From the IMG/VR virus record IMGVR_UViG_3300049003_000123, positions 1-40,286 of that record: a DNA stretch of 40,286 nucleotides; one strand, given 5' to 3'. Shown here piece by piece: positions 3,060 to 29,296 of the stretch. The translations under genes and the position numbers were made by a program. The stretch is from a virus. The notes beneath the pieces were generated by a model that saw nothing but the letters and a program-made list of their open reading frames with translations, was not told the DNA's origin and ran no database searches. The first letter of the stretch is position 1. Every line of letters starts with the position of its first letter.

Positions 3060-3140
3060 TCGACAGCGGCCTTGGAAGCTGTCGATCGCCGGTCGGGGGG
3101 AACGCAGAGTCCGCGTTGGAAGACCCTCGACCGCCGATCG
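3060..3140 (+). promoter_or_regulatory. overlapping leader hairpins ahead of the methyltransferase gene
   Basis: Two inverted repeats lie in the 121-base gap before the C5 methyltransferase. The first has perfect 8-base arms (TCGACAGC at 3060-3067 and GCTGTCGA at 3078-3085). The second pairs 3083-3099 with 3124-3140 with one mismatch and one G-U pair. They share bases 3083-3085, so they compete. There is no U-tract, so this is not an ordinary terminator. Regulation of methyltransferase expression is an inference from position. Confidence 0.4.
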
Positions 3141-3167
3141 ATCGAGTCCACGATCAAAAACCTGAGA

Positions 3168-5030
3168 ATGACCTCTTACCCTACAGCCACTGATCTATTT
3201 TGCGGCGCCGGCGGAAGCTCGCATGGCGCCGAACTCGCGGGCATTGAAGTCCGGCACGCGAGCAACCATTGGCAGCGCGCCGTCGATACCTACGCGAAGA
3301 ATCATCCCCTGACGGACGTCGATTGTGCTGATATCTCGAAGACAGATCCTCGGCGTTACGACCGCACCGACATCCTGATCGCATCGCCGGAGTGCACGAA
3401 CCACAGCCTGGCCAAGGGCGTACGACGGATCGCTTTGTCGCAGGATCAGATGTTCGGGTGCGACCTTTGCGCGCGGCATGGTGAATCGAACTGCCCGAAA
3501 CACTCCGATCCGATCGTGCGCTCGCGTGCCGGCGGTTGGGATGTGGTGAAGTTCGTCGAACATCACCGCTACTCGATCGTCATCCTCGAGAACGTTGTGG
3601 ACTGGCTCGAATGGGGAGACTTCCAACGCTGGTGGCGCACGATGGAGAACCTCGGCTACGTCGGCCAGAAGGTGTTCTTCAATTCAATGTTCGCGCCGCC
3701 GACGCCGCAGTCGCGCGACCGGCTCTACATCGTGTGGCATCGCAAGGGGAATCGAGCTCCGAATTGTGATCTCAGGCCGCTGGCGTTCTGCAATACCTGT
3801 GATCTCGACATCAACGCGAAGCAGGTGTTCAAGAACGGCTCGTCACCGAAAGCGCGCTACGGGAAACAGTACTTCTACGCCTGTTCGACCTGCCAAGCGG
3901 TTGTGCACCCTTACTACTTCGCCGCCGTAAATGCGATCGATTGGAGCATCCCGGCCGTGCCGATCGGCGAACGTGCGAAGCATGGTCTCCAGCCGCTGAA
4001 GCCGCGCACGATGGAGAGGATTCAGTACGGCATCGATCGATACGGCAGCAAGCCGCTCATTGTCACGGTGAACCAGACGAACCGGCTCGGAGGACGAGTC
4101 AGGCCGGCGAGTGGCGCGCTCTTCACTCAGCCCGGATGCTCGGTGACGGGGATGGCTTCGCCGTTCATGGTGGAAACAGCATTTTCGCACGCACCCCTGG
4201 GGCAAGGAGGTAGGGCTCGAGGCGTTGAAAGATCGTTGCCAACGCAGAGCGCTCGGCTGACCGGGGGCGTTGTTTCTCCGTTCGCTCTTCACATGCAGGG
4301 CTCATTGCGCGCACACGGGCTCGACGAACAGCTCTCGACGCAAGTGGCGAGTTGTCCACAGGACGCTCTGCTCTCGCCCGCGTTTATGCTGGCCGCGGGT
4401 AGCAATCCCTTTTCGCCGCGGTCGGTAGAAGAGACGATGCCGACGCTGACCGGATCGGATCGCGGGGCGTTTGCTTTCGCGCCGTCATTCATCGCGAATT
4501 TGCGTGGCACTGGTGATGATCAGGTTCGCTACACGTCATCAGGTCTGGACGAGAGTCTCGGCACAATCAGCGCCGGCGGCGTGCACGCGGCAATCGTGAA
4601 CCTTCGCGACTGGACATTCGCGCGGCAGCTCTGCACCGGAGTCGAGGCGCCACTGCCGACGCAGGTAGCCGGCGCGACGACCGCGCTTCTCTCGCATCGT
4701 TCTCCGTTCGTGGTCAGCTACTACGGCGGTCTGCAGGCGGCTGGCATCGACGAAGCGATGGGCACTATTCCAACGCGCGACCGCCACGCACTCGTCGTGC
4801 CGTCGATCGAGGAATGGTGCTTCCGGATGTTCAAGCCTCCCGAGATCGGAATCGGGATGGCTTTTCCGCCGACGTACATCGTGACGGGCAACGATCGCGA
4901 CCAGGTCAAGCAATACGGCAACGCGGTGACGCCGCCAGTGATGCGATGGCTGATCGCGATCTGCCTGGAATCGCTCTATCCCGAACGTCCCGCCTATGAC
5001 CCATGGGCGGAGTGGAGGACGGCCGCGTGA
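3168..5030 (+). CDS. DNA (cytosine-5) methyltransferase
   Basis: A 620-residue enzyme from ATG 3168, chosen because motif I (DLFCGAGGSS, residues 9-18) follows at once. Motif IV reads SPECTNHS (73-80) with catalytic Cys76, ENVV (141-144) is motif VI, QSRDRLYIV (181-189) is motif VIII and YGNAVTPP (583-590) is motif X. It transfers a methyl group from SAM to C5 of cytosine. A zinc-ribbon-like insert (Cys208/211 and Cys239/242) and about seven spaced repeats of an acidic-LPTQ or GTI type (about 315-545) form the target-recognition region. This kind of repeat is seen in phage C5 enzymes. It overlaps the next gene by four bases. The sequence recognised is unknown. Confidence 0.93.
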   Translation: MTSYPTATDLFCGAGGSSHGAELAGIEVRHASNHWQRAVDTYAKNHPLTDVDCADISKTDPRRYDRTDILIASPECTNHSLAKGVRRIALSQDQMFGCDLCARHGESNCPKHSDPIVRSRAGGWDVVKFVEHHRYSIVILENVVDWLEWGDFQRWWRTMENLGYVGQKVFFNSMFAPPTPQSRDRLYIVWHRKGNRAPNCDLRPLAFCNTCDLDINAKQVFKNGSSPKARYGKQYFYACSTCQAVVHPYYFAAVNAIDWSIPAVPIGERAKHGLQPLKPRTMERIQYGIDRYGSKPLIVTVNQTNRLGGRVRPASGALFTQPGCSVTGMASPFMVETAFSHAPLGQGGRARGVERSLPTQSARLTGGVVSPFALHMQGSLRAHGLDEQLSTQVASCPQDALLSPAFMLAAGSNPFSPRSVEETMPTLTGSDRGAFAFAPSFIANLRGTGDDQVRYTSSGLDESLGTISAGGVHAAIVNLRDWTFARQLCTGVEAPLPTQVAGATTALLSHRSPFVVSYYGGLQAAGIDEAMGTIPTRDRHALVVPSIEEWCFRMFKPPEIGIGMAFPPTYIVTGNDRDQVKQYGNAVTPPVMRWLIAICLESLYPERPAYDPWAEWRTAA

Positions 5031-7615
5031 GTGCGATCTTCAACCTCATACCGCCGGAGCGTCAGGCGGCGGCTGCCGCGTATCAATCCTTCCTGGAGGC
5101 GAAGATTGCGTCCGTGCCGTCGAGCGGCTTCGAGATAGCTGTGGGTGATGTGAACCCCGCGTGCAAGCCACACGTGCGCGCGATCGTGCCGTGGATGGTC
5201 GGGAAGGGGAGGGCGGGTTGCTTCTCGCTCTTCGGGATGCAGAAGACGTCGACGCAGCTCGAGGCCGTGCGACTGACGCGCGAGCTCGCCGGCGGGAACG
5301 CCCTCATCGTCTGTCCGTTGGGGGTGCGCCAGGAGTTTAGGCGCGACGCGATGGAGCTTCTCGGCTGGCCGCGGCCGCCGCGGTTCATCCGCTCGACTGA
5401 AGAGATTACGGACGAGGATGAAATCTACATCACGAATTGGGAGTCGGTCCGGGAGCGGAAGATTGATCCGCGCCGATTCACGGTGGCCACCTTCGACGAG
5501 GCCGACGCGCTGCGTTCTTTCGGATCAAAAACTTTCGGAGAGGTCGTCATTGGTCCGTGGCACGAGATCAAGTATCGCTACGTGGCCAGCGCCACCCCCG
5601 ATCCAAACGACTACATCGAACTCCTCGGTTACGCACAGTTCCTCGGCGTCATGGATATCGGCCAGTCAAAGACCCGCTTCTTTAAACGTGACTCAGAGCA
5701 CGCCGACAACCTGACGCTCTACCCTCACAAGGAGGCCGAGTTCTGGTTGTGGGTCGCGTCATGGGGACTCGTCATTCAACGGCCGTCAGACCTCGGATTC
5801 TCGGACGACGGATACCTTCTCCCGCCGCTCGACATTCGGTGGCACGAGATCCCTTCCGATCATCGCGACGCCGGCGAGGAGAAGAACGGGCAGCGACGCC
5901 TTCAAAAGGACGTCGCCGTTGGCGTTCGTCACGCGGCGAAAGAGAAGCGGGAAAGCCTACCAGCCCGAGTTGCGAAGATGTTGGAACTTCGCGACGAGGA
6001 TCCCGACGCGCACCGGATGATCTGGCACGACCTGGAGGACGAGCGCAGAGCGATCGAGGCGGCAATCCCCGACGTCGTCTCTGTGTACGGGACTCAGGCG
6101 CTCGAAGATCGGGAGAAGGCGGTCGCCGCGTTTGCCGACGGTCAGACCCGCGAACTCGCGTCGAAGCCGGTACTGCTGGGTGCCGGAGTTAACTTGCAGC
6201 GCCACTGTTCGTGGCAGATTTTTCTCGGCATCGGCTACAAGTTTCGCGACATCCTGCAGGCGCTGCATCGGCTCTATAGGTTCGGCCAGACCAAGCCGGT
6301 CCGCGTCGATTTCATCTACACCGAGGCGGAGCGCTCCGTTCGCGCCGGGCTGGAAGCGAAGTGGGCGCGGTACAACAAGCAGACCGCGAAGCTGGCCGCC
6401 ATCATCCGCGAACTCGGTCTGGCGGAGATCTCGATGGCGTCGCTGCTCACGCGATCGATGGGGATTGAACGGGCCGAGGTATCCGGCGAAAAGTTCTGCG
6501 TCGTCAACAATGACTGCGTCCTCGAAACCATGGCGATGGACGACGACAGCACGGATCTGATCTTCACCAGCCCACCGTTTTCAACTCAGTACGAATACAC
6601 GCCTTCATTCAACGACTTCGGCCACACCGACTCGACCGAGCACTTTTGGGCGCAGATGGATTTCCTGACGCCCGAGCTCTATCGGGTTCTTCGGCCGGGC
6701 CGAGATCTCGTGATTCACATCAAGGACCGCGTGGTGCCGGGCGGCATGACCGGCCTCGGTTTCCAAGTGGTGGACGCGACGCACGCCGACGCCATCGCTC
6801 ACTACAAGCGGCACGGCTTTGCCTTCTTAGGCATGAAAACAATCGTCACCGACGTCGTTCGCGAGAACGCTCAAACCTACCGCCTCGGCTACACGGAGAA
6901 CTGCAAGGACGGAACGCGGATGGGAGCCGGCCTGCCGGAGTACTTGCTGATCTTCCGAAAGCCGCCGAGCGACCGAAGCAACGGCTACGCCGATGTGCCG
7001 GTGGTGAAGAGCAAGGAGGAGTACTCCCGCTCGCGGTGGCAGTTCGACGCCCACGGCTTCATGCGGTCAAGCGGCAACCGACTGCTGACGCCGGAGGAGA
7101 TCGTCAGGCTGCCGTGGAAATCTATCTTTCGCATTTTTCGTGATCATTCGCTCAACGAGGTCTATGACTTCGAGCAGGATGTTGCGCTCGCCGAGGCACT
7201 CGAAAAATGTGAGCCGTCGCGGCTTCCTCCGGACTTCATGCTCCTACAGCCGGCGAGTCATCATCCCGATGTCTGGACCGACGTCGCCAGGATGCGAAGC
7301 CTGAACGGGTCGCAAGCAGCGCGGAGCCGCGACAAACATCTTTGTCCTCTCCCGTTCGATATCGTGCATCGAACGATCGTCCAGCGCTCACAGCCAGGCG
7401 AAGTTGTTTACGACCCGTTCTTGGGTCTAGGGACCACCGTGTATTGCGCGATCAAGTTAGGCCGCCGCGCCCGCGGGAGCGAGTTGAGCCCGCAGTATTT
7501 TAAAGACGTCGTCTATTACGCCAGGCTCGCCGTGGCTGAGCGCGCAACGCCGTCGCTGTTCGATGTTCTCGATGTTGAAGCTGAGGAGGTGCAGCGTGAC
7601 GCTCTCGCTGTTTGA
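5027..7615 (+). CDS. SNF2-like helicase / beta-class DNA methyltransferase fusion
   Basis: An 862-residue protein. GTG 5027 overlaps the previous TGA and has GGAGTGGAGG upstream. Residues 55-460 form a two-lobed SNF2-type ATPase: FGMQKT (69-74) at the Walker A position, FDEAD (156-160) as Walker B, SAT (188-190), and QALHRLYRFGQ (411-421) as motif VI. Residues about 490-835 form an amino-methyltransferase with TSPPF (514-518, motif IV) before DPFLGLGTT (796-804, motif I), the beta-class order. The MTase should methylate adenine N6 or cytosine N4, and the helicase may translocate or give processivity. The Walker A lacks the usual Gly before Lys (Gln72). Related helicase-MTase fusions occur in phages. 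Confidence 0.9.
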   Translation: MSAIFNLIPPERQAAAAAYQSFLEAKIASVPSSGFEIAVGDVNPACKPHVRAIVPWMVGKGRAGCFSLFGMQKTSTQLEAVRLTRELAGGNALIVCPLGVRQEFRRDAMELLGWPRPPRFIRSTEEITDEDEIYITNWESVRERKIDPRRFTVATFDEADALRSFGSKTFGEVVIGPWHEIKYRYVASATPDPNDYIELLGYAQFLGVMDIGQSKTRFFKRDSEHADNLTLYPHKEAEFWLWVASWGLVIQRPSDLGFSDDGYLLPPLDIRWHEIPSDHRDAGEEKNGQRRLQKDVAVGVRHAAKEKRESLPARVAKMLELRDEDPDAHRMIWHDLEDERRAIEAAIPDVVSVYGTQALEDREKAVAAFADGQTRELASKPVLLGAGVNLQRHCSWQIFLGIGYKFRDILQALHRLYRFGQTKPVRVDFIYTEAERSVRAGLEAKWARYNKQTAKLAAIIRELGLAEISMASLLTRSMGIERAEVSGEKFCVVNNDCVLETMAMDDDSTDLIFTSPPFSTQYEYTPSFNDFGHTDSTEHFWAQMDFLTPELYRVLRPGRDLVIHIKDRVVPGGMTGLGFQVVDATHADAIAHYKRHGFAFLGMKTIVTDVVRENAQTYRLGYTENCKDGTRMGAGLPEYLLIFRKPPSDRSNGYADVPVVKSKEEYSRSRWQFDAHGFMRSSGNRLLTPEEIVRLPWKSIFRIFRDHSLNEVYDFEQDVALAEALEKCEPSRLPPDFMLLQPASHHPDVWTDVARMRSLNGSQAARSRDKHLCPLPFDIVHRTIVQRSQPGEVVYDPFLGLGTTVYCAIKLGRRARGSELSPQYFKDVVYYARLAVAERATPSLFDVLDVEAEEVQRDALAV

Positions 7616-7892
7616 CCTTCCTCCGGCACGAGCGACTGTCGCCGCATCACCCACTGCGAAGGCCGAGTCAGACGATGTAATTCTCCGCGTCCGGCATAGG
7701 GATGGAGACTTCTATCACCTGACATCGGGAGGCGTCGTTGATCGTCAATTTCAAATCATCGTGCTGATGAATGGTCTCGTCTTCTTCGAATTCATCGACA
7801 ACAAAGAGCGGCGTCCTGACCACAGCCGGATCACGCGCGAGGTGATCGACTGGATGATGAAGATGGGGACGTGGCGTGAGGTGGTCTCGTGA
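7596..7892 (+). CDS. hypothetical protein
   Basis: A 98-residue protein. GTG 7596 has an ideal GAGGAGG box at 7583-7589 and lies inside the end of the methyltransferase gene. The N-terminus begins VTLSLFDLPPAR, a short hydrophobic/proline peptide like those that bind partner proteins. The rest looks like a small alpha/beta domain (FYHLTSGGVVDRQFQIIVLMNGLVFFEFID). No family is recognised. Its position between the two modification enzymes suggests an accessory role, which is only an inference. Confidence 0.6.
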   Translation: MTLSLFDLPPARATVAASPTAKAESDDVILRVRHRDGDFYHLTSGGVVDRQFQIIVLMNGLVFFEFIDNKERRPDHSRITREVIDWMMKMGTWREVVS

Positions 7893-8623
7893 TTTTCTTT
7901 CCGGGGCTTCATCAGCCATCGGACGCACAGCACTTTTCACGTGCGTTCATTAGTGTGAATCGTCTCCGTGACCGCGCGTCTGGCTTTGCCGTCAACGATT
8001 GGATCATGGATTCCGGCGCGTTCACGGAGGTGGCGCGCCACGGCGGTTACCGGCAAGGTGTCGAGCGGTACGCCTTCGATGTCGGTCGCTGGGCGAAGTG
8101 CGGCAACCTGCTCGCCGCGGCCGCGCAGGATTTCATGTGTGAGCCGTTCGTCGTCGCAAAGACAGGACTCAACATTCCGACGCACCAGCGTCTCACGATA
8201 GAGCGTTACGACGCACTGCTCGATTGCGACCCTCGCACGTACATCCTGCCGGTGTTGCAGGGATACGCACCGGGCGATTACGTCCGACACGTTGACTCGT
8301 ACGGCCAGCGTCTCGCTGAGGGCGCATGGGTTGGAGTCGGCTCGATCTGTAAGCGGAACGCGAGCGTGGGCTCAGTGGAGGCGGTGTTGCGTGCTATCCG
8401 GGGTGTCCGTCCTGATCTGCGACTCCACGGCTTCGGACTGAAGATTACAGCTCTTCAAAGCGACAGCGTCCGACGTTCTCTTTACTCTGCCGATTCGATG
8501 GCTTGGAGTTTCAGCGCGCGAATGCAGGGCCGGAACGCGAACGACTGGCGCGAAGCCGAGAGGTTCGCGGAGCGCGTGCGATCAGCACCAGCGCAGCGAT
8601 CGCTTCTCGGAGATGCGGCATGA
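7889..8623 (+). CDS. dpdA: DpdA-like 7-deazaguanine DNA transglycosylase (TGT superfamily)
   Basis: A 244-residue protein. Key motifs are MDSGAFT (40-46), a Gln-Asp pair at 80-81, PVLQG (121-125), VGVGSICKR (148-156), HGFGLK (180-185) and DSMAWS (202-207). This is the TIM-barrel pattern of tRNA-guanine transglycosylases as found in the shorter phage DpdA proteins, which swap guanine in DNA for a 7-deazaguanine (preQ0-type) base. Asp41 and Asp202 align with the two catalytic aspartates of TGT. The TGT Cys-rich zinc site is absent, which argues for DNA rather than tRNA as substrate. It overlaps both neighbours by four bases. No preQ0 synthesis genes are in the window, so the base would come from the host. 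Confidence 0.8.
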   Translation: MIFFPGLHQPSDAQHFSRAFISVNRLRDRASGFAVNDWIMDSGAFTEVARHGGYRQGVERYAFDVGRWAKCGNLLAAAAQDFMCEPFVVAKTGLNIPTHQRLTIERYDALLDCDPRTYILPVLQGYAPGDYVRHVDSYGQRLAEGAWVGVGSICKRNASVGSVEAVLRAIRGVRPDLRLHGFGLKITALQSDSVRRSLYSADSMAWSFSARMQGRNANDWREAERFAERVRSAPAQRSLLGDAA

Positions 8624-9606
8624 AAGTACTCCACCTGCGCTACGCGGCGAAGCTGCAGCACTACAAGGACCGGAACGTCCCCTGGCTGAAGATGTACACG
8701 GCCATCCTTGGAACGCACGCCATTACGCCGAGGACCGATAAAGAGGTCGTTGCGTACGCACAGGCGGTGTGGGCGCTGTCCGACATGGCGAAACTCGTCC
8801 TGCCGTATCTGGAAGCCTTGGGGAGCCGCCAGACGCCGATTAACCAGATCCCCTACCAGATGGGGTGGATCGCTCACGAGCTGCGCATCCTGAACCTCTC
8901 ATCGCAGCCGAGGGTGCTTTCCCGTGCCGTGCACGAAATCATCGATCAAGGTCTAGCGGAGTGTCTAGACATCACGTCTATCCATGAATCTAGACTGCCC
9001 CTCTCTTTCTCTGAAGGTGTTTCTCTGGGTTCTGACCTGGGAGGGGGTGCGGGGGAGGGTCCGTCGATCGGCGACATCGAACGCGAGGCTCCTGACTGGG
9101 CAAAAGTGTCGCCGGAGCTGCTTTTGGCAGTGGAGCACTACGAGCTTGCCATGCGGAAAGCGCCGTCGTGGCCGGCTGTGCGCCGCGGTGTGCTGCGCGA
9201 CCTCGGCCGCTACTTCGCCGAGGCGGATGGGAAGGTGCGCGACCTCGAGCCGGAGTTCGACTGGCTGATCTGCTTTGCCAGAGCGACCGAGCAGGGGATG
9301 GTTGCGGAGATCCCGGGCTTCGGTCTGGAGTGGTTCTTCCGCACGGAGAGCAACGGCGCCCGCCTCAACGCGCTGAAGGTGTGGGACTACGGCTTCGAGT
9401 CGCGTGAGGAGAAGAAGGCACGTCAGGGACGGCATGGCGACTGGCGCGACGGTGACTCGGATTTCGCGCGATCGAACGGCTACGTTGTCCGAATGGAGCC
9501 ATCTAACACGGCAGTTCGCCGTTTCGTTCGTAGCGATGAACAAGTGAGTTTCGCGTTCGCAGATGAGCCGCGAACTTCGCTGTTCGTTGTCGGAGGAAGA
9601 CGATGA
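8620..9606 (+). CDS. phage replication initiator / helicase loader-like protein
   Basis: A 328-residue protein; ATG 8620 overlaps the preceding TGA. Residues 11-30 (LQHYKDRNVPWLKMYTAIL) match the start of winged-helix phage replication proteins. The N-terminal domain runs to about 105, and a low-complexity Gly/Ser linker covers about 118-152. A second domain (about 155-260) may contact the helicase. It lies one small gene upstream of dnaB, as expected for an initiator or loader. The linker DNA holds iteron-like repeats and a G-quadruplex motif, like phage genes that contain their own origin. The family assignment rests on motif and context. Confidence 0.7.
   Translation: MKVLHLRYAAKLQHYKDRNVPWLKMYTAILGTHAITPRTDKEVVAYAQAVWALSDMAKLVLPYLEALGSRQTPINQIPYQMGWIAHELRILNLSSQPRVLSRAVHEIIDQGLAECLDITSIHESRLPLSFSEGVSLGSDLGGGAGEGPSIGDIEREAPDWAKVSPELLLAVEHYELAMRKAPSWPAVRRGVLRDLGRYFAEADGKVRDLEPEFDWLICFARATEQGMVAEIPGFGLEWFFRTESNGARLNALKVWDYGFESREEKKARQGRHGDWRDGDSDFARSNGYVVRMEPSNTAVRRFVRSDEQVSFAFADEPRTSLFVVGGRR
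8951..8995 (+). repeat. four iteron-like GTCTAGAC repeats (candidate origin)
   Basis: Four copies of a GTCTAGAC-like unit lie in one orientation: GTCTAG at 8951, GTCTAGAC at 8963, GTCTA at 8976 and ATCTAGAC at 8988. The copy-to-copy spacing is 12, 13 and 12 bases. CTAG is rare elsewhere in the window. The stretch 8941-9030 is about 48% G+C against roughly 60% around it. The repeats sit in the linker of the replication initiator gene, where lambda-type phages keep their origin. Origin function is inferred. Confidence 0.6.
9039..9059 (+). other. G-quadruplex motif inside the initiator gene
   Basis: Runs of 3, 5, 5 and 3 guanines are separated by loops of 1, 3 and 1 bases on the + strand (9039-9059). 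This meets the standard criterion for a stable intramolecular G-quadruplex. It lies 44 bases after the iteron-like repeats and encodes part of the Gly-rich linker. Some origins use such structures, but the role here is unproven. Confidence 0.5.
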
Positions 9607-9898: not shown

Positions 9899-11260
9899 TT
9901 GCCGCAGTCTCCGGATGCGGAGCGCGCGGTCCTCGGCTCGATTCTGATCAACAACCATGTGTTCTACCGTGTGGTCAGCACGATCACTACCGAGGATTTT
10001 TTTCGCGACGCGCATCGAACGATTTTCGCGACTATGCGCCGATTGGCGGAGCAGAGCCGCGAGATCGATCTGTTGACGTTGCGCGAAGAGTTAGCGAAGA
10101 ACGCCCAGCTCGAGCAGGTCGGCGGAACGGCGTATGTCGCGTCACTGGTGGATGGCATTCCCGATATCGCGAACGTCGAGCGCTACGCGCACATCGTCAA
10201 AGAAAAGTCGACGCTGCGGCGGCTGATCGTGATGGGCAATTCCGTGATGCGCGCGGCGCTCGACTCGCCCGGCGAGCCGGCGGACGTGCTCAACATCGCC
10301 GAAAAATCGATCTACGAAATCGCCGAAGGCTCCATCGAGAAAGGCTTCGTCGCCCTCGATCGGATCACGCGCTCGAACATGACCGCAATCGAGCAATTGC
10401 AGCACGCCGGAAAACTGATCACCGGCATCCCCACCGGCTACGACCGCTTCAACGAATTCACCTCCGGATTCCAGCTGCAGGACTTGATCATCATCGCCGG
10501 CAGACCCAGCATGGGGAAGACGGCGTGGGCGATGAATATCGCTGAATCGATCGCGATCCCTGATCGTGCCGGCGATCCTCACCGTCCTGCGCTACGGCTG
10601 TATGCGGTCGGCTTTTTCTCGCTGGAAATGTCGAAGGAGCAGATCGGGCTGCGCATCCTTTCGTCGGAATCGGGCGTGTCGAATCACCTCATCCGCGCGG
10701 GCATGCTCAGCGAGCGGAATTGGCGTGATCTCGCCGACGCCTCGGCGCGGCTGGCGAAGGCGAAGATCTTCATCGACGATTCTCCCGGCATCGACATCAT
10801 GGAGATGCGCGCCAAAGCGCGGCGCCTGAAGATGGAGGCGGGACTGGACATGATCATGGTCGACTACCTTCAGCTCATGTCGGTCAAGGGGAAGGTCGAG
10901 TCGCGCAACCAGGAGGTTTCGCAGATCTCGCGCGGGCTCAAAGCGATCGCGAAGGAACTGAACGTTCCGCTCATCGCGCTCTCGCAGCTGTCGCGGCGTC
11001 CCGAGCAGCGCACAGGCGATCACCGGCCGCAGCTCTCCGACCTCCGCGAATCGGGATCGATTGAGCAGGACGCGGACGTGGTCTGCTTCATCTATCGCGA
11101 TGAGGTCTACAACAAGGACACGGAAGAGAAGGGGATCGCCGAGATCATCATCGGCAAACAGCGCAACGGCCCCATCGGCGATTTCAAGCTGGTGTTCCGC
11201 AACGACATCACCAAATTCTTCAACTACGAGCCGACACCGGATTACGGAGCAGCAGCATGA
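9899..11260 (+). CDS. dnaB: replicative DNA helicase DnaB
   Basis: A 453-residue protein read from TTG 9899. The N-terminal domain starts PQSPDAERAVLGSIL and ends near residue 145. The RecA-like domain has Walker A GRPSMGKT (201-208), the LEMS block near 242-245, Walker B VDYLQLM (321-327), SIEQDADVV (387-395) and QRNG with the arginine finger (421-424). It unwinds DNA 5'-3' as a hexamer at the phage fork. No intein is present. The start is uncertain: no good box precedes TTG 9899. The frame is open upstream past an AAGGCGGAG box (9851-9859), with CTG 9863 or ATC 9866 as non-standard candidates overlapping the previous stop. Confidence 0.95.
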   Translation: MPQSPDAERAVLGSILINNHVFYRVVSTITTEDFFRDAHRTIFATMRRLAEQSREIDLLTLREELAKNAQLEQVGGTAYVASLVDGIPDIANVERYAHIVKEKSTLRRLIVMGNSVMRAALDSPGEPADVLNIAEKSIYEIAEGSIEKGFVALDRITRSNMTAIEQLQHAGKLITGIPTGYDRFNEFTSGFQLQDLIIIAGRPSMGKTAWAMNIAESIAIPDRAGDPHRPALRLYAVGFFSLEMSKEQIGLRILSSESGVSNHLIRAGMLSERNWRDLADASARLAKAKIFIDDSPGIDIMEMRAKARRLKMEAGLDMIMVDYLQLMSVKGKVESRNQEVSQISRGLKAIAKELNVPLIALSQLSRRPEQRTGDHRPQLSDLRESGSIEQDADVVCFIYRDEVYNKDTEEKGIAEIIIGKQRNGPIGDFKLVFRNDITKFFNYEPTPDYGAAA

Positions 11261-11481: not shown

Positions 11482-11747
11482 ACGCCGCCGATCGCAGGAA
11501 GGTGCGGAAGCGTGGATTTCAACGCTTCCACATGGCGGACCAGCAGATCCTTCTCTTTGCCTTGGAAAACGTGCAAATGGTCAACGAGACGCCAGAGCAG
11601 ACCGCGCGGATCAACGACATGATCCATGAGCTCGGCCGCTTGACCAAGAGCGCCGTGGAGCGCCACCGAGGTCTCACTCCTCAACGGAGGAAGGTTTCCG
11701 GCTGCGTGCTCGCAATGTCTTATGTCCTGGACATAAGACATTGCTAA
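11478..11747 (+). CDS. hypothetical basic protein, last gene of the early block
   Basis: An 89-residue protein; the ATG overlaps the preceding TGA. The N-terminus is basic (DRRKVRKRGFQRF) and the middle is helical (QTARINDMIHELGRLTKSAVERH). The last 11 or so residues, ending MSYVLDIRHC, are encoded by a perfect DNA inverted repeat, so the C-terminus was probably shaped by that element, not selected as protein. No family is recognised. Confidence 0.5.
   Translation: MNAADRRKVRKRGFQRFHMADQQILLFALENVQMVNETPEQTARINDMIHELGRLTKSAVERHRGLTPQRRKVSGCVLAMSYVLDIRHC
11712..11744. repeat. perfect 16-bp inverted repeat with 1-base centre
   Basis: Arms GCAATGTCTTATGTCC (11712-11727) and its exact complement (11729-11744) flank a single T. 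It lies across the last codons of the 11478-11747 gene, at the boundary between the replication genes and the next block. There is no U-tract, so it is not a standard terminator. It could be an operator for a dimeric regulator, a recombinase site or a small palindromic mobile repeat. Confidence 0.75.
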
Positions 11748-13106: not shown

Positions 13107-15419
13107 ATGCGCAAATTCATCGTCGTCCTCGGCCTGCTGATCGCTGCCGGAACCTCGTTTGCTCAGGAGCCAGCTGTCTCCTCGCAGCTGAACGTGTGGA
13201 CCGCGCCGCAACGATTCAAGCGGCCGCTCGATCTCGATTGCCGCGTGCTGTCGATCGAGCCGCTGAGTGCCGCGGGTCGAGCCAAGGTCGGATGCGACTC
13301 GGCGTCGAACGCGCTGAAGATCTCCATCAACGGCGGCGCGTTTGCTACGTTCGGTGGAAGTGGAACGGTCACGACTCTCGGCACCGGCACGATCGCTTCG
13401 ATCTTTACCTTCTCCGTCACCAACCCCGCGACGACGCCTGCGATCTCGCTCAGCTTCTCCGCGCAGCTCGCGAACTGCATCCTGGCGGGACCGGTAAGCG
13501 GATCGGCTGCGGCCCCGACGTGTCGCGCGCTCGATCCGCTCGACATCCCCACGCTTGCACCGGCGAAGATCACCGGCACCGCGGTCATCGCTACGGACTC
13601 GCGACTCTCCGACTCGCGCACACCAACAGGACACGCGTCGACGCACGCGGCGGCCGGAAGCGATCCGGTCACGCTGATCGAGGCACAGACCACGAATCTC
13701 CTCGCCGACCTCGCCGCCAAGGCGGCGACGACGCGCTTGATTTCCACAACCTCGCCATTGAACGGCGGTGGTGATCTCTCCGCGAATCGCACGTTGACAG
13801 TTGACGCTGCAGGATCGGGTGTCGCGGGCGTGATTCCATCGACCGGCGTGACGGGCGGCATGATTTCGACTGGCGCTGTAACCGACGACAAAACCAGTCT
13901 GGCCGTGAAGCCAAGTTGTGGTGTCGTCGCAACGTCGAACATCACTCTTACGGGAGTTCAGACAATCGACGGAGTAGGTGGATCGGCAGGGACCACGCTT
14001 GTTCTCGCAACGGCTCAGACTACCGGCAGCCAGAACGGTCCATGGACGATGCAGTCAGGTGCGTGGACGCGGCCGGCGTGGTATCCGAGCGGCGGGACGA
14101 CCCAGGCGTTTCAGTTCATCACGACATTCGTCCGGTTGGGGAACACCTTCTCCGGAACGACCTGGCGCATCACCAGCGCCGGCGCGGTAACGATCGACAC
14201 CACGGCTACGACGTGGCAGGAAGCGCAACTTCACCTCGACGCGGCATCGACGACAGGCTCCGCACCGACGGCCGTTGCTCTCGCCTCAACCCCCACTGCA
14301 TGCTCGGCAGGCAGTTACGCGCGCGGAATCGATGTGAATGGAAACGCTGTGAACTGCACGGCCGTACCGGCGCCTTTCTCGGTATCAGGTACCGGTGTTC
14401 CGACGGTCACGTCCGGGGTGCTCGATTCCGCTGCTACGCCATTCACTCCGAACGCAACCGCCTCCACGATCGCTTCACGTGATTCCAGCGCGAACATGCG
14501 CTCGAACAGCTACATCGACGGGTACACAACGACAGCAACGGCGGCCGGAACGACGACGCTCACGGTGGCCTCGACAAAACTCCAGCTCTTCACTGGATCA
14601 ACGACGCAGACTGTCGTCCTTCCCGTTGCATCAACTCTCGTCACGGGTCAAGAGTATCGAATCATCAACCTAAGTACGGGCACTGTGACGGTCAACTCAT
14701 CCGGCGCGAATCTAGTGTTGTCGATGCCTGCGAATGCTGTCGCTCACTTTATGTGCATTCTGACCTCCGGTACTTCCGCGGCGTCGTGGAGCGCCGTTCC
14801 GTTGGCGCGAACGGACAACGTGTCGCAGAACTTCGCTGGTCCAATCACGTTTTCCAACAGCGGCACCTACTCTATGTCGCCCGGGAACCTCGCCGTTGCC
14901 GGAAGTGTTTCCGGAAATACCTTCGATATATCTGGCGCATTGCATGCGCAGGCTGGTCGCGTTGAGCTTGGAACGGACGTCTCACTGGTGTGGAACAAAA
15001 CGAGCGCGAATCAGGCAACCTTAGCCAGCGCTATGCAAGGTGGCGAGAAAGACCTCACGAACAACACCGCAACTGGATTCGTGAAAATCGGCCTCGCAAC
15101 CGATACCGTCGCTGCCGGGAAGATTGTCTACACGGTGCGCGTGCTCGACGCTACTAACCACTTGATGCAGGTTACTAGTGGAACCATTCCTTTCTCGGCG
15201 ATCAACGAAAACGGGACGGTTACGATCTCGTCATTGTCTGCGGTGAATACGAGCGCGACACTTCACGCGGCGAGCAGCGATGCGATCTCGTTCGATTCAA
15301 CATCTACATCGACCGACTTCACGGTCCGCGTGACATCGAATACGTCGCTGACTGCCACAACACACGTCATCAACTACATCGTTTTGTTGCCGGGCAACCG
15401 GACGATCACGCATTTGTAA
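13107..15419 (+). CDS. fibre-like protein with Sec signal peptide
   Basis: A 770-residue protein. Residues 1-20 (MRKFIVVLGLLIAAGTSFAQ) are a textbook Sec signal peptide. The rest is low-complexity, Ser/Thr/Gly-rich and beta-like. It contains segments I know from phage tail fibres: TPTGHASTHAAAGSDPV near 172-188 and a CSAGSYARGIDVNGNAVNCT block near 400-418. A C-terminal trimer-forming or adhesive domain is likely. A signal peptide is unexpected for a virion fibre that assembles in the cytoplasm. It lies upstream of terminase, far from the tail genes, so it may be an exported adhesin-like protein. Confidence 0.65.
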   Translation: MRKFIVVLGLLIAAGTSFAQEPAVSSQLNVWTAPQRFKRPLDLDCRVLSIEPLSAAGRAKVGCDSASNALKISINGGAFATFGGSGTVTTLGTGTIASIFTFSVTNPATTPAISLSFSAQLANCILAGPVSGSAAAPTCRALDPLDIPTLAPAKITGTAVIATDSRLSDSRTPTGHASTHAAAGSDPVTLIEAQTTNLLADLAAKAATTRLISTTSPLNGGGDLSANRTLTVDAAGSGVAGVIPSTGVTGGMISTGAVTDDKTSLAVKPSCGVVATSNITLTGVQTIDGVGGSAGTTLVLATAQTTGSQNGPWTMQSGAWTRPAWYPSGGTTQAFQFITTFVRLGNTFSGTTWRITSAGAVTIDTTATTWQEAQLHLDAASTTGSAPTAVALASTPTACSAGSYARGIDVNGNAVNCTAVPAPFSVSGTGVPTVTSGVLDSAATPFTPNATASTIASRDSSANMRSNSYIDGYTTTATAAGTTTLTVASTKLQLFTGSTTQTVVLPVASTLVTGQEYRIINLSTGTVTVNSSGANLVLSMPANAVAHFMCILTSGTSAASWSAVPLARTDNVSQNFAGPITFSNSGTYSMSPGNLAVAGSVSGNTFDISGALHAQAGRVELGTDVSLVWNKTSANQATLASAMQGGEKDLTNNTATGFVKIGLATDTVAAGKIVYTVRVLDATNHLMQVTSGTIPFSAINENGTVTISSLSAVNTSATLHAASSDAISFDSTSTSTDFTVRVTSNTSLTATTHVINYIVLLPGNRTITHL

Positions 15420-26189: not shown

Positions 26190-26699
26190 ATGAAAGAACC
26201 GATCACCTGGTGGCGCGCCAACGAGGTGCGTGACATCGCCGAAGGGCTGATGCCGGAGTTCCACGAGCATCTTGCCGATCTGCGAATCCTCTACCTCTTC
26301 CGCTCCAAACACAGCGAGAAGAAGGGCCGCTCCACGCTCGGCACATGCCGGAAAATCGGTGGGCTGACCGCGTACCTCGCATTCCGGACGGAGTTGGAGG
26401 CGATCACCGCCGAGCGTCCTCCCGCTCCTGTGGCGGACTCGTTCTTCGTCGTCGAGATCGCGCACGACACGTGGGTTCATCTGTCGCCGTCGCAGCGAAT
26501 CGCACTCGTCGATCACGAGTTGTCGCACATCGGCGCGGACGCGGAAATGGTCGGCCACGATGTAGAGGAATTCGCGGCTGTAATTCAGCGCCACGGCGCG
26601 TGGAAGACGGACCTCAGCGCGTTCCTCGAAGCAAGCAATCAACAGCATCTCTTCAACGATCCGCAGCGTGTAAACGACCACACCGATCAGGTTCAATAA
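26190..26699 (+). CDS. putative phage metallopeptidase (HExxH)
   Basis: A 169-residue protein. VDHELSHIG carries His109-Glu110-x-x-His113, the zinc-binding HExxH signature, and GHDVEEFAAVIQRHG (122-136) follows, as in the family annotated 'putative phage metallopeptidase'. The conserved downstream Asp-Val-Glu-Glu would supply a further ligand. It occupies the place between tail tube and tape measure where tail-assembly chaperones normally lie. Whether it processes a tail protein or acts on the host is unknown. Its TAA overlaps the ATG of the tape measure gene. Confidence 0.75.
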   Translation: MKEPITWWRANEVRDIAEGLMPEFHEHLADLRILYLFRSKHSEKKGRSTLGTCRKIGGLTAYLAFRTELEAITAERPPAPVADSFFVVEIAHDTWVHLSPSQRIALVDHELSHIGADAEMVGHDVEEFAAVIQRHGAWKTDLSAFLEASNQQHLFNDPQRVNDHTDQVQ

Positions 26700-29296
26700 T
26701 GACCGACAAAAAGTACGTCGCCTCGTATCTTGTGGATACGGGTGCGTCCAAACAAAACATCCAGGAGGTTCAGGATGCTCTTGTTAAATCAGGGGATGCC
26801 GGTGTCAAGTCTGCGTCTCAGATCACGCAGGGGCTTCAGGGGATCGAGGGTGGATCGGAAAAGGCGCTTGGAAAGATCGCCAACGGAGCGCAGGTATCAG
26901 ATGCGTCGCTGAAGCAGCTGGCGGCGCGGTTTGTCGCGGTTGAAGATGGAGTCACCAAAGCCTTCGGGTCGATCGAGGCGGCGCCGGAAGCAATCAAGAC
27001 GGCGATGGCGACTGCTGAAGAGCAGATCGTTGCCGTGAACACGGCCGTCGTCGCTGGTGGAGAGAAGGTTGACCAGATGGCCGCGCAGTTCGCGGCTATG
27101 GGCCAAGCCGCAGCTTCCGCGAGTCAACAGGCAGCCGAAGGGGGCGCGACCGTCGAAGCGTCGATGACCGCCGCTAGCGAAGCGACCGCCGCCGCCGCAG
27201 AGTCAATGGCCGGCGCAGCAGAGGCCGCTGGCGCAGCAGCGGAGTCTGTCCAAACGGTCACATCCAACACGATAGATGCTGCTGCAGCGCTTCAGGACTT
27301 TTCAACAGCCACAGTACGTGCCACCGCTGCCGAGACGGAACTCGATAAGAGTAATCTCGCGCTCCTTGACAGCTACACGCTAATTCAGGAGCGCGCGGAA
27401 CTGATGTCGGAGCGCCTAGCGGATGTCACAGAGAAGATTGAAGCTGGCGACATTTCTATGCGTGAAGCCAGCATGACCGTAAAGCGTTTGGCGATTGACT
27501 ATCAGAATCTCGGAAGCACGATCAAGGCCGAGTTTGGGTCGGTCTCTGCTTCTGGTCAAGAAGTGTCGGCTGTCTATCGTGACCTTGGTGCAGAATTTTC
27601 CGTCGTGAAGGAGAAGGCGGGTTCCATGGCGTTGTCGGTGCGCCTGGCAGCCGACGAGGTCGCATTTGCGTCAGGCAAGGCTCTCAACGCAGAAAAGGCC
27701 TTCGCTATGATGGCCGGATCAATGGGGCCAGCCGTCGTGAAGGGATTTCTGTTCGCCTCAATGGCCGGAGTCGCGGCCATGGCGGCCGAAAAGCTAGCCG
27801 AAGCGATCGATGGAGACGCCCACGTTGTTGACAAGATAAAGGAGTCCTTTCACGGAGCGTCAGGGTCAATCGTACAAGACACGTATGACGCTTACGGTGC
27901 ACTCATGCATCTCGTGGGCGCTACGTTAAGTTTAGATGAGGCACAGAGAAAAGCTGCAAAAGAAGATTTCAGCTTTACTCTGGAACGCCAGAATGCTGCC
28001 GCAGCCGGTGACACGCAAGCACTAGACCTACTGAACGCCGCCCATGCGATGGGATTGAGGGTGGAGCAAACGCACAAGCTATCCGTCGCGCAGGCTGCGG
28101 AAGTAATGAAGTTCTACGCGACGACGCTTAAGATGGGTGAGACCGGAGTGCGTGAGTTAGCGCTGGTGCATCTGCAAGGCCGAGGAGAAATAGAGAAAGT
28201 TGTAGCGGCGATCAAAGAGAACTCAGCGGCGCTGGATGAGAACAAGGAAAAGTTGGAACATATCATCGAGGCGGAAAAGGAGCAGCAGATCGAGCTGACG
28301 GCGACGGAAAAGAAGATCCGCAGCAAGATCGAAGCCGTTGTCGAAGAGATTCGAAACGTGGAGCAGCAGATCAAACAATATGGCACAGAGGCGGAAGCCG
28401 AGCAAAAGCTGTTCGATCTTGAAAAGAAACGAATCGATTTGATCCTCAACCTCGAGGTTGCCACCAAGGGGAATACTAGATCGCTGGCCGAGCTCGAGAA
28501 TGCGATAAAAGATCACCTTCCTTACGGCGAGCGATACTCGCAGCAGTTGGCTGGCGATGGTGCCTTGATGTCATCTCTGATCGCCAAGACTGACGGTCTG
28601 ACCAGGGTGGAGCGCGCCCGCTTGACCACTATATCTGATTCCGCGATCGCTATTGGCAAGTCCGCAGGAGCCGCTGCTTCTCTCACAGCGCAGATCGATA
28701 AAGAGACCGACGCATTATTCGAAATGAAGGGTGCGGATCAGAAGGCGAAGGATGCTGCTTTAGAACACATTCAGGCGTTAGAACGTCAGAGAGATGCTCT
28801 AAGCGCGTCATCGATTGCCGCTAAGGCTTTGGGAGAAATTCAGAACGTTCAGGCGGCGGCGACCGTACAAGGAACGGAGGCGGAGGATCATTACGGAGTC
28901 GCAGCGACATCGACACTCACGCCTTTGGAGCAGGTGCGCGCCGCGATGGCAAAAATTGAAGAGGCCAGACGGTCAGGGACGACGGCCACAACCGCTGCCG
29001 CCGCTGCGGATACAACCGCTGCCGGTGCTGCGAAACATCACGCAGATGAAATCTCGGCTATAGGCGAAAGCTTTAAGGAAGTGGGCGCGGCGGTCAAGGA
29101 TCACCTGATATCGCAGCTCGATGACACGAAAAAGAAGCTGGATGAGATAAAGGTCGCCGCCGACAGCGCCACTGCATCAATTGTGAAGATGTCAAACTCT
29201 GTAAACGCCGTACCTGATGGCGGTGGAAACTCTACCCAGTACGATAAGCCTATCGGTCCCGAAAAACCCACGTACTTCCCACGTATTTACGGATAA
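26699..29296 (+). CDS. tail tape measure protein
   Basis: An 865-residue protein whose ATG 26699 overlaps the preceding TAA by one base. It is rich in Ala, Glu, Lys and Gln, with long coiled-coil stretches (about 20-220 and 490-620, the latter with KEQQIELTATEKKIRSKIEA). One hydrophobic region near 338-365 (MMAGSMGPAVVKGFLFASMAG) may insert into the host membrane. Its length would set a tail of roughly 130 nm at 1.5 angstrom per residue. G+C is lower here than in adjacent genes, and CTAG sites are more frequent, suggesting module exchange. Confidence 0.82.
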   Translation: MTDKKYVASYLVDTGASKQNIQEVQDALVKSGDAGVKSASQITQGLQGIEGGSEKALGKIANGAQVSDASLKQLAARFVAVEDGVTKAFGSIEAAPEAIKTAMATAEEQIVAVNTAVVAGGEKVDQMAAQFAAMGQAAASASQQAAEGGATVEASMTAASEATAAAAESMAGAAEAAGAAAESVQTVTSNTIDAAAALQDFSTATVRATAAETELDKSNLALLDSYTLIQERAELMSERLADVTEKIEAGDISMREASMTVKRLAIDYQNLGSTIKAEFGSVSASGQEVSAVYRDLGAEFSVVKEKAGSMALSVRLAADEVAFASGKALNAEKAFAMMAGSMGPAVVKGFLFASMAGVAAMAAEKLAEAIDGDAHVVDKIKESFHGASGSIVQDTYDAYGALMHLVGATLSLDEAQRKAAKEDFSFTLERQNAAAAGDTQALDLLNAAHAMGLRVEQTHKLSVAQAAEVMKFYATTLKMGETGVRELALVHLQGRGEIEKVVAAIKENSAALDENKEKLEHIIEAEKEQQIELTATEKKIRSKIEAVVEEIRNVEQQIKQYGTEAEAEQKLFDLEKKRIDLILNLEVATKGNTRSLAELENAIKDHLPYGERYSQQLAGDGALMSSLIAKTDGLTRVERARLTTISDSAIAIGKSAGAAASLTAQIDKETDALFEMKGADQKAKDAALEHIQALERQRDALSASSIAAKALGEIQNVQAAATVQGTEAEDHYGVAATSTLTPLEQVRAAMAKIEEARRSGTTATTAAAAADTTAAGAAKHHADEISAIGESFKEVGAAVKDHLISQLDDTKKKLDEIKVAADSATASIVKMSNSVNAVPDGGGNSTQYDKPIGPEKPTYFPRIYG

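Follow-up and report, generated by a model that had tools for sequence, protein, structure and literature searches.

The window analysed here is a whole stretch of 40,286 bases from one IMG/VR virus record. It contains a gene for a replication initiator, P0001, whose ORF (8620-9606) is followed on its 3' side by a small ORF and then by the gene for a DnaB helicase. Four short repeats lie inside the initiator gene. The features of this locus are as follows:

8620..9606, + strand: replication initiator gene P0001, 328 aa, with the N-terminal motif QHYKDRNVPWLKMY (family HMM, AlphaFold2 model)
8620..8979, + strand: predicted winged-helix DNA-binding domain, residues 1-120 (AlphaFold2; weak helix-turn-helix resemblances)
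8951..8958, no strand: iteron 1, GTCTAGCG (seen in the sequence; CTAG core common to relatives)
8963..8970, no strand: iteron 2, GTCTAGAC, a perfect palindrome, of 10 bp when its flanks are counted (TGTCTAGACA) (seen in the sequence)
8976..8983, no strand: iteron 3, GTCTATCC, degenerate and without CTAG (seen in the sequence)
8988..8995, no strand: iteron 4, ATCTAGAC (seen in the sequence)
8996..9033, no strand: pyrimidine-rich stretch after the iterons (CCCCTCTCTTTCTCT...TTTCTCTGGGTTCT), with TCT Ser codons (tract length P 0.125)
9899..11260, + strand: DnaB-type replicative helicase gene (Pfam DnaB N and C domains, C domain 1.2e-103; PHROG 19)

The initiator gene is directly preceded by a DpdA-like gene at 7889-8623 (Pfam PF23859; PHROG queuine tRNA-ribosyltransferase), a neighbour that suggests 7-deazapurine DNA modification. 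Two large DNA methyltransferase ORFs are located at 3072-7615: one is of the C5 type (652 aa), and the other (870 aa) matches a phage DNA helicase family and an N6/N4 methylase. A perfect 16-bp inverted repeat with a 1-base loop (GCAATGTCTTATGTCC / GGACATAAGACATTGC) is found at 11712-11744.

An earlier note on this DNA had proposed a replication origin of four evenly spaced units in the linker of the initiator gene. The units are indeed present at 8951, 8963, 8976 and 8988, in steps of 12, 13 and 12 bp. Their positions are thus as described, but the same orientation that was ascribed to them says little, as GTCTAGAC is its own reverse complement. Their location in the linker is only partly correct: they encode residues 111-126, a segment that includes the final predicted strand of the N-terminal DNA-binding domain before running into the disordered linker. 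The CTAG core is rare, as had been stated, with 12 occurrences in the window versus 44 expected, and three of the 12 fall inside the 41-bp array stretch (P 0.00045 for three of 12 within 37 bp).

Could such an array be an accident of coding and composition, produced by a low-complexity linker, a run of rare codons and an AT-leaning patch? When a four-copy statistic for any motif was applied, the cluster scored 35, a value reached somewhere in 65% of Markov-simulated windows. A cluster of this strength is therefore expected somewhere in 40 kb, and a repeat cluster of similar strength indeed occurs in a structural gene at 14512. Within the P0001 gene alone, compared with synonymously recoded versions, the same statistic gave a P of about 0.02. 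The array region uses the rare codons CTA, TCT and AGA, and its 16-codon rare-codon run ranks 91 of 10516, which is low but not extreme. Serine is encoded by TCT in six of six cases at 8950-9036 versus one of 16 elsewhere in the gene. Against an accident, permutation of the gene's own codons among synonymous sites gave a probability of 0.0007 for at least three CTAG and of 4e-5 for at least four TCTA (the motif was picked after being seen; the CTAG core was later obtained independently from relatives), and AT-tilted codon sampling gave at most about 0.001. Judged from its own sequence alone, the array is only suggestive, because clusters of some motif are frequent in simulated windows; the codon choice strengthens the case.

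AlphaFold2 modelled most of residues 1-120 of P0001 with a pLDDT of about 90 (62-72 at residues 11-40), with helices at 41-51, 55-69, 81-88 and 97-109 and strands at 76-78 and 113-117; residues 127-162 were modelled as disordered. A Foldseek search with this model returned no significant match, and VIA-align found weak matches (Z at most 4.1), several of which are helix-turn-helix proteins. The protein matched nothing in Pfam and PHROG, nor the profile of PHROG 26426 even at E 10, a search in which the HMMER filters drop weak matches. Direct searches of IMG/VR, GenBank phages and GTDB genomes yielded no usable relative. The family was opened via weak matches that share the N-terminal motif QHYKDRNVPWLKMY, putative replication proteins of known phages, which were aligned with P0001. 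With this alignment as query, 59 relatives were found in IMG/VR; extending the search brought in 19 from bacterial genomes, among them Labrenzia, Mesorhizobium, Rhizobium, Sinorhizobium, Polynucleobacter and Nitrospira.

The non-redundant relatives of the P0001 N-terminal domain number 68. An HMM built from their N-terminal domains, with the window left out, had the ORF at 8620-9606 as its sole match among the 577 ORFs of the window (E 4.7e-12), and P0001 carries the sequence QH[YF]KDR..PW.K by which the N-terminal domain of the family is recognized. All ten relatives that were scanned match PHROG 26426 'replication protein'; Xanthomonas phage PBR31 is a relative sharing the N-terminal domain. 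The C-terminal halves of several relatives match differing initiator or helicase-loader families, some of them 'O-like' PHROGs. In the N-domain tree, the branch of P0001 is long (2.42); the motif of the protein places it on the QHY side, its exact place being unsure. No close relative was found in the collections searched, including a query for the V-P-W subfamily, whose extra rows were hand-typed short motif variants. A phage related by its terminase (51%) differs in its replication region, where no matching initiator was seen.

In the wider family, nearly all members carry short arrays built on a palindromic core of six bases, located in the corresponding part of the gene: the linker DNA contains GCTAGC arrays in members with QHY and GATATC arrays in members with QHF. 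These were compared with a control that kept each peptide and its codon usage, using 50 non-redundant relatives (20 QHF and 30 QHY). GATATC occurs 55 times in the linkers of the 20 QHF relatives versus 13 in the control (maximum 19); of its 35 steps, 33 measure exactly 11 bp, and its copies are spread over the three reading frames (20/18/17). Its density is 13.7 per kb of linker versus 0.11 per kb in the rest of the locus, and the enrichment of the core words in general, linker over remaining locus, is about 60- to 120-fold. When prophages were added, at least two GATATC were present in 22 of 22 QHF members. In the 30 QHY relatives, GCTAGC was found 44 times versus 6.6 in the control (maximum 12), with steps of 11 or 12 bp or about double that, in two reading frames that encode Ala-Ser or x-Leu-Ala, and TCTAGA nine times versus 1.75.

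The expectation that related phages would conserve repeats in the initiator linker was thus borne out: core and 10-12 bp step are kept far above the control, while peptides and frames differ. One word in several frames at a fixed step indicates conservation of, and selection on, the DNA itself, for which peptide constraint cannot account. The earlier note had explained the repetition by a DNA function and had named a conserved peptide without conserved spacing as its refutation; the relatives display the opposite. The core word also follows the protein. GATATC members form a single group in the N-domain tree (support 100/97), the core-word labels require nine changes on this tree versus 26 when shuffled, and the word tracks the N-terminal domain although the C-terminal halves vary in family. 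This tie suggests that the N-terminal domain recognizes the core.

Four QHY members (L016, L067, L070 and L075) lack both GATATC and GCTAGC within the searched region; in L070, TGCGTAGCA-type units take their place. An in-frame HNH endonuclease domain (Pfam PF01844) interrupts the initiator linker at its repeats in two relatives (L023:1220-2278 and L070:170-1276), and in L070 the TGCGTAGCA-type units flank the insertion on both sides. A scan of the collection for three GTCTAG units gave no match within any ORF that carries the initiator motif, and a second TCTAGA-type array was not found. The same scan returned many viral contigs (several of L087-L101) with long arrays of GGTCTN hexanucleotides.

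The array of the window fits this pattern in that it consists of palindromic-core units at steps of about one turn just 3' of the DNA-binding domain, as in the PHROG 26426-like group. Its CTAG cores lie 99, 103 and 111 codons past QH, compared with a median of 85 (range 66-97) for the first core of the relatives; P0001 has an insertion in that domain. Several points speak against the origin reading besides the long branch of P0001 and its lack of a close relative in the collections searched: the unit is GTCTAGAC and not GCTAGC, the steps are 12/13/12 and not mostly 11, and CTAG is missing from unit 3. On sequence grounds, the array is a divergent CTAG-core version of the family arrays, with the flanks of GTCTAGAC and the 12/13/12 steps as its own traits. 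A PWM made from the CTAG iterons of the relatives scored two other sites above the array, 27174 (the best score of the window) and 27794; these were rejected as competing sites, being isolated and hundreds of bases apart. The ORF at 26345-29296 holds five of the 12 CTAG sites of the window (27174-28476), hundreds of bases apart.

The array had also been assigned to a soft stretch of DNA. The GC content of 8941-9036 is 47.9%, as described, but the softness is weak: the lowest 50-bp GC at the array (44%) is equalled by 41 other patches, so that 42 patches of the window, including the array, are equally AT-rich over 50 bp. A marked AT-rich unwinding element was looked for beside the array in the window and not found, and in the relatives the linkers do not exceed the remainder of their genes in AT content. 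The cumulative GC skew, suggested as a further check, does not turn near 9 kb and gives no origin signal. What usually, if not universally, follows the arrays of the relatives is a purine-rich tract on the 3' side, above the codon-control mean in 66 of 69 rows and reaching P 0.05 or lower in 45 of them. The window has no significant tract of this kind (tract length P about 0.13 on either strand). It is possible, though weakly so, that the pyrimidine-rich stretch at 8996..9033 is its opposite-strand counterpart. In a Nitrospira relative (L071:4001-4687), the tract after the GCTAGC array is pyrimidine-rich (CTCTTCTCTT), which places the purines on the opposite strand.

Lambda-like phages are an established case of iteron origins inside a gene, and the iterons of lambda are units of about 18 bp. 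In lambda ori, four iterons lie in the middle of gene O beside an AT-rich tract (PMC7466680). The window resembles lambda and its Stx phage variants in that the iterons are in the middle of the initiator gene. However, its core is 6-8 bp, its steps are 12-13 bp, a marked AT-rich tract is lacking, and P0001 gives no match to the lambda-O family in Pfam or PHROG. The analogy with lambda-type phages drawn in the earlier note consequently holds for the in-gene iterons and not for the AT-soft element. Since this element was sought and not found, and unit size and step differ, we did not file the array as a lambda-type origin; the best reading is that it is lambda-like in its working but not a lambda-O origin. 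Plasmid iterons usually measure about 17-22 bp, recur at close to two helical turns and lie outside the rep gene. Iteron plasmid origins are like the window in having arrays of repeats to which an initiator binds (as it presumably does in the window), but their units are longer, more widely spaced and not inside the rep gene. The initiators of PHROG 26426, for example that of Cylindrospermopsis phage Cr-LKS3, share with the window the N-terminal domain, the palindromic-core arrays and their position in the gene. The differences are that their words are GCTAGC or GATATC, that most steps are 10-12 bp and that a purine-rich tract is mostly present, whereas the window has GTCTAGAC-like units at 12/13/12 and no significant tract of this kind. 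We place P0001 in the PHROG 26426-like group as a putative divergent member, and regard the array as a candidate variant of the in-gene iteron origin.

We consider it probable that 8951-8995 is the iteron array of a phage replication origin inside the initiator gene, bound by the initiator that this gene encodes. It is the arrays of the relatives, and not the statistics of the window, that decide in favour of an origin. The relatives also make an accident of coding or composition unlikely, as their arrays lie at nearly the same position in the gene and their core word was found independently of the window. Slightly less probable still is that the array is an operator, through which the initiator or another regulator controls transcription of the replication genes and not the start of replication. 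Palindromic cores suit a dimeric regulator, and the array lies 5' of dnaB; the sites, however, are in the middle of a gene, and the change of the core word with the N-domain clade of the initiator points to recognition by the initiator itself. Autoregulation may exist alongside the origin function. That the conserved linker DNA is a recombination junction for swaps of the C-terminal domain, with the repeats as a by-product, is very improbable: C-terminal halves matching different initiator families and the two HNH insertions at this place agree with it, but it leaves the 11-bp steps, the palindromic cores and the association of the core word with the N-domain clade unexplained.

If the array is an origin, the winged-helix domain (residues 1-120) would bind the four CTAG-core units, and their spacing of little over one helical turn would allow several initiator molecules to line up on the DNA. 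In the O/P pathway of lambda, the helicase is recruited after the initiator has bound. By analogy, the linker and the C-terminal part of P0001 could bring in the DnaB encoded nearby, and the DNA beside the array would then be opened. Both the binding of the initiator and the origin activity are inferred.

For the family as a whole, we lean slightly towards a joint proposal. According to it, this is a large group of phage initiators with self-encoded, clade-specific origins, in which arrays of palindromic hexamers at about one helical turn lie in the gene's own linker region. The word (GCTAGC, GATATC or TCTAGA-like) would switch with the N-terminal domain, so that each gene is a matched pair of protein and site, and the initiator would assemble on one unit in each turn, while the DNA that it opens would be a strand-biased purine/pyrimidine tract rather than an AT-rich element. 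A prior description of these arrays was not found in the open-access literature searched. A different and widespread initiator family would follow the same logic as lambda-like phages, with units that are shorter and spaced by about one turn, and with a core word that changes with the protein clade. As each gene combines a DNA-binding domain with its probable target, the family would provide a natural data set on how initiator specificity changes, as well as a simple rule to predict origins in many uncultured phages.
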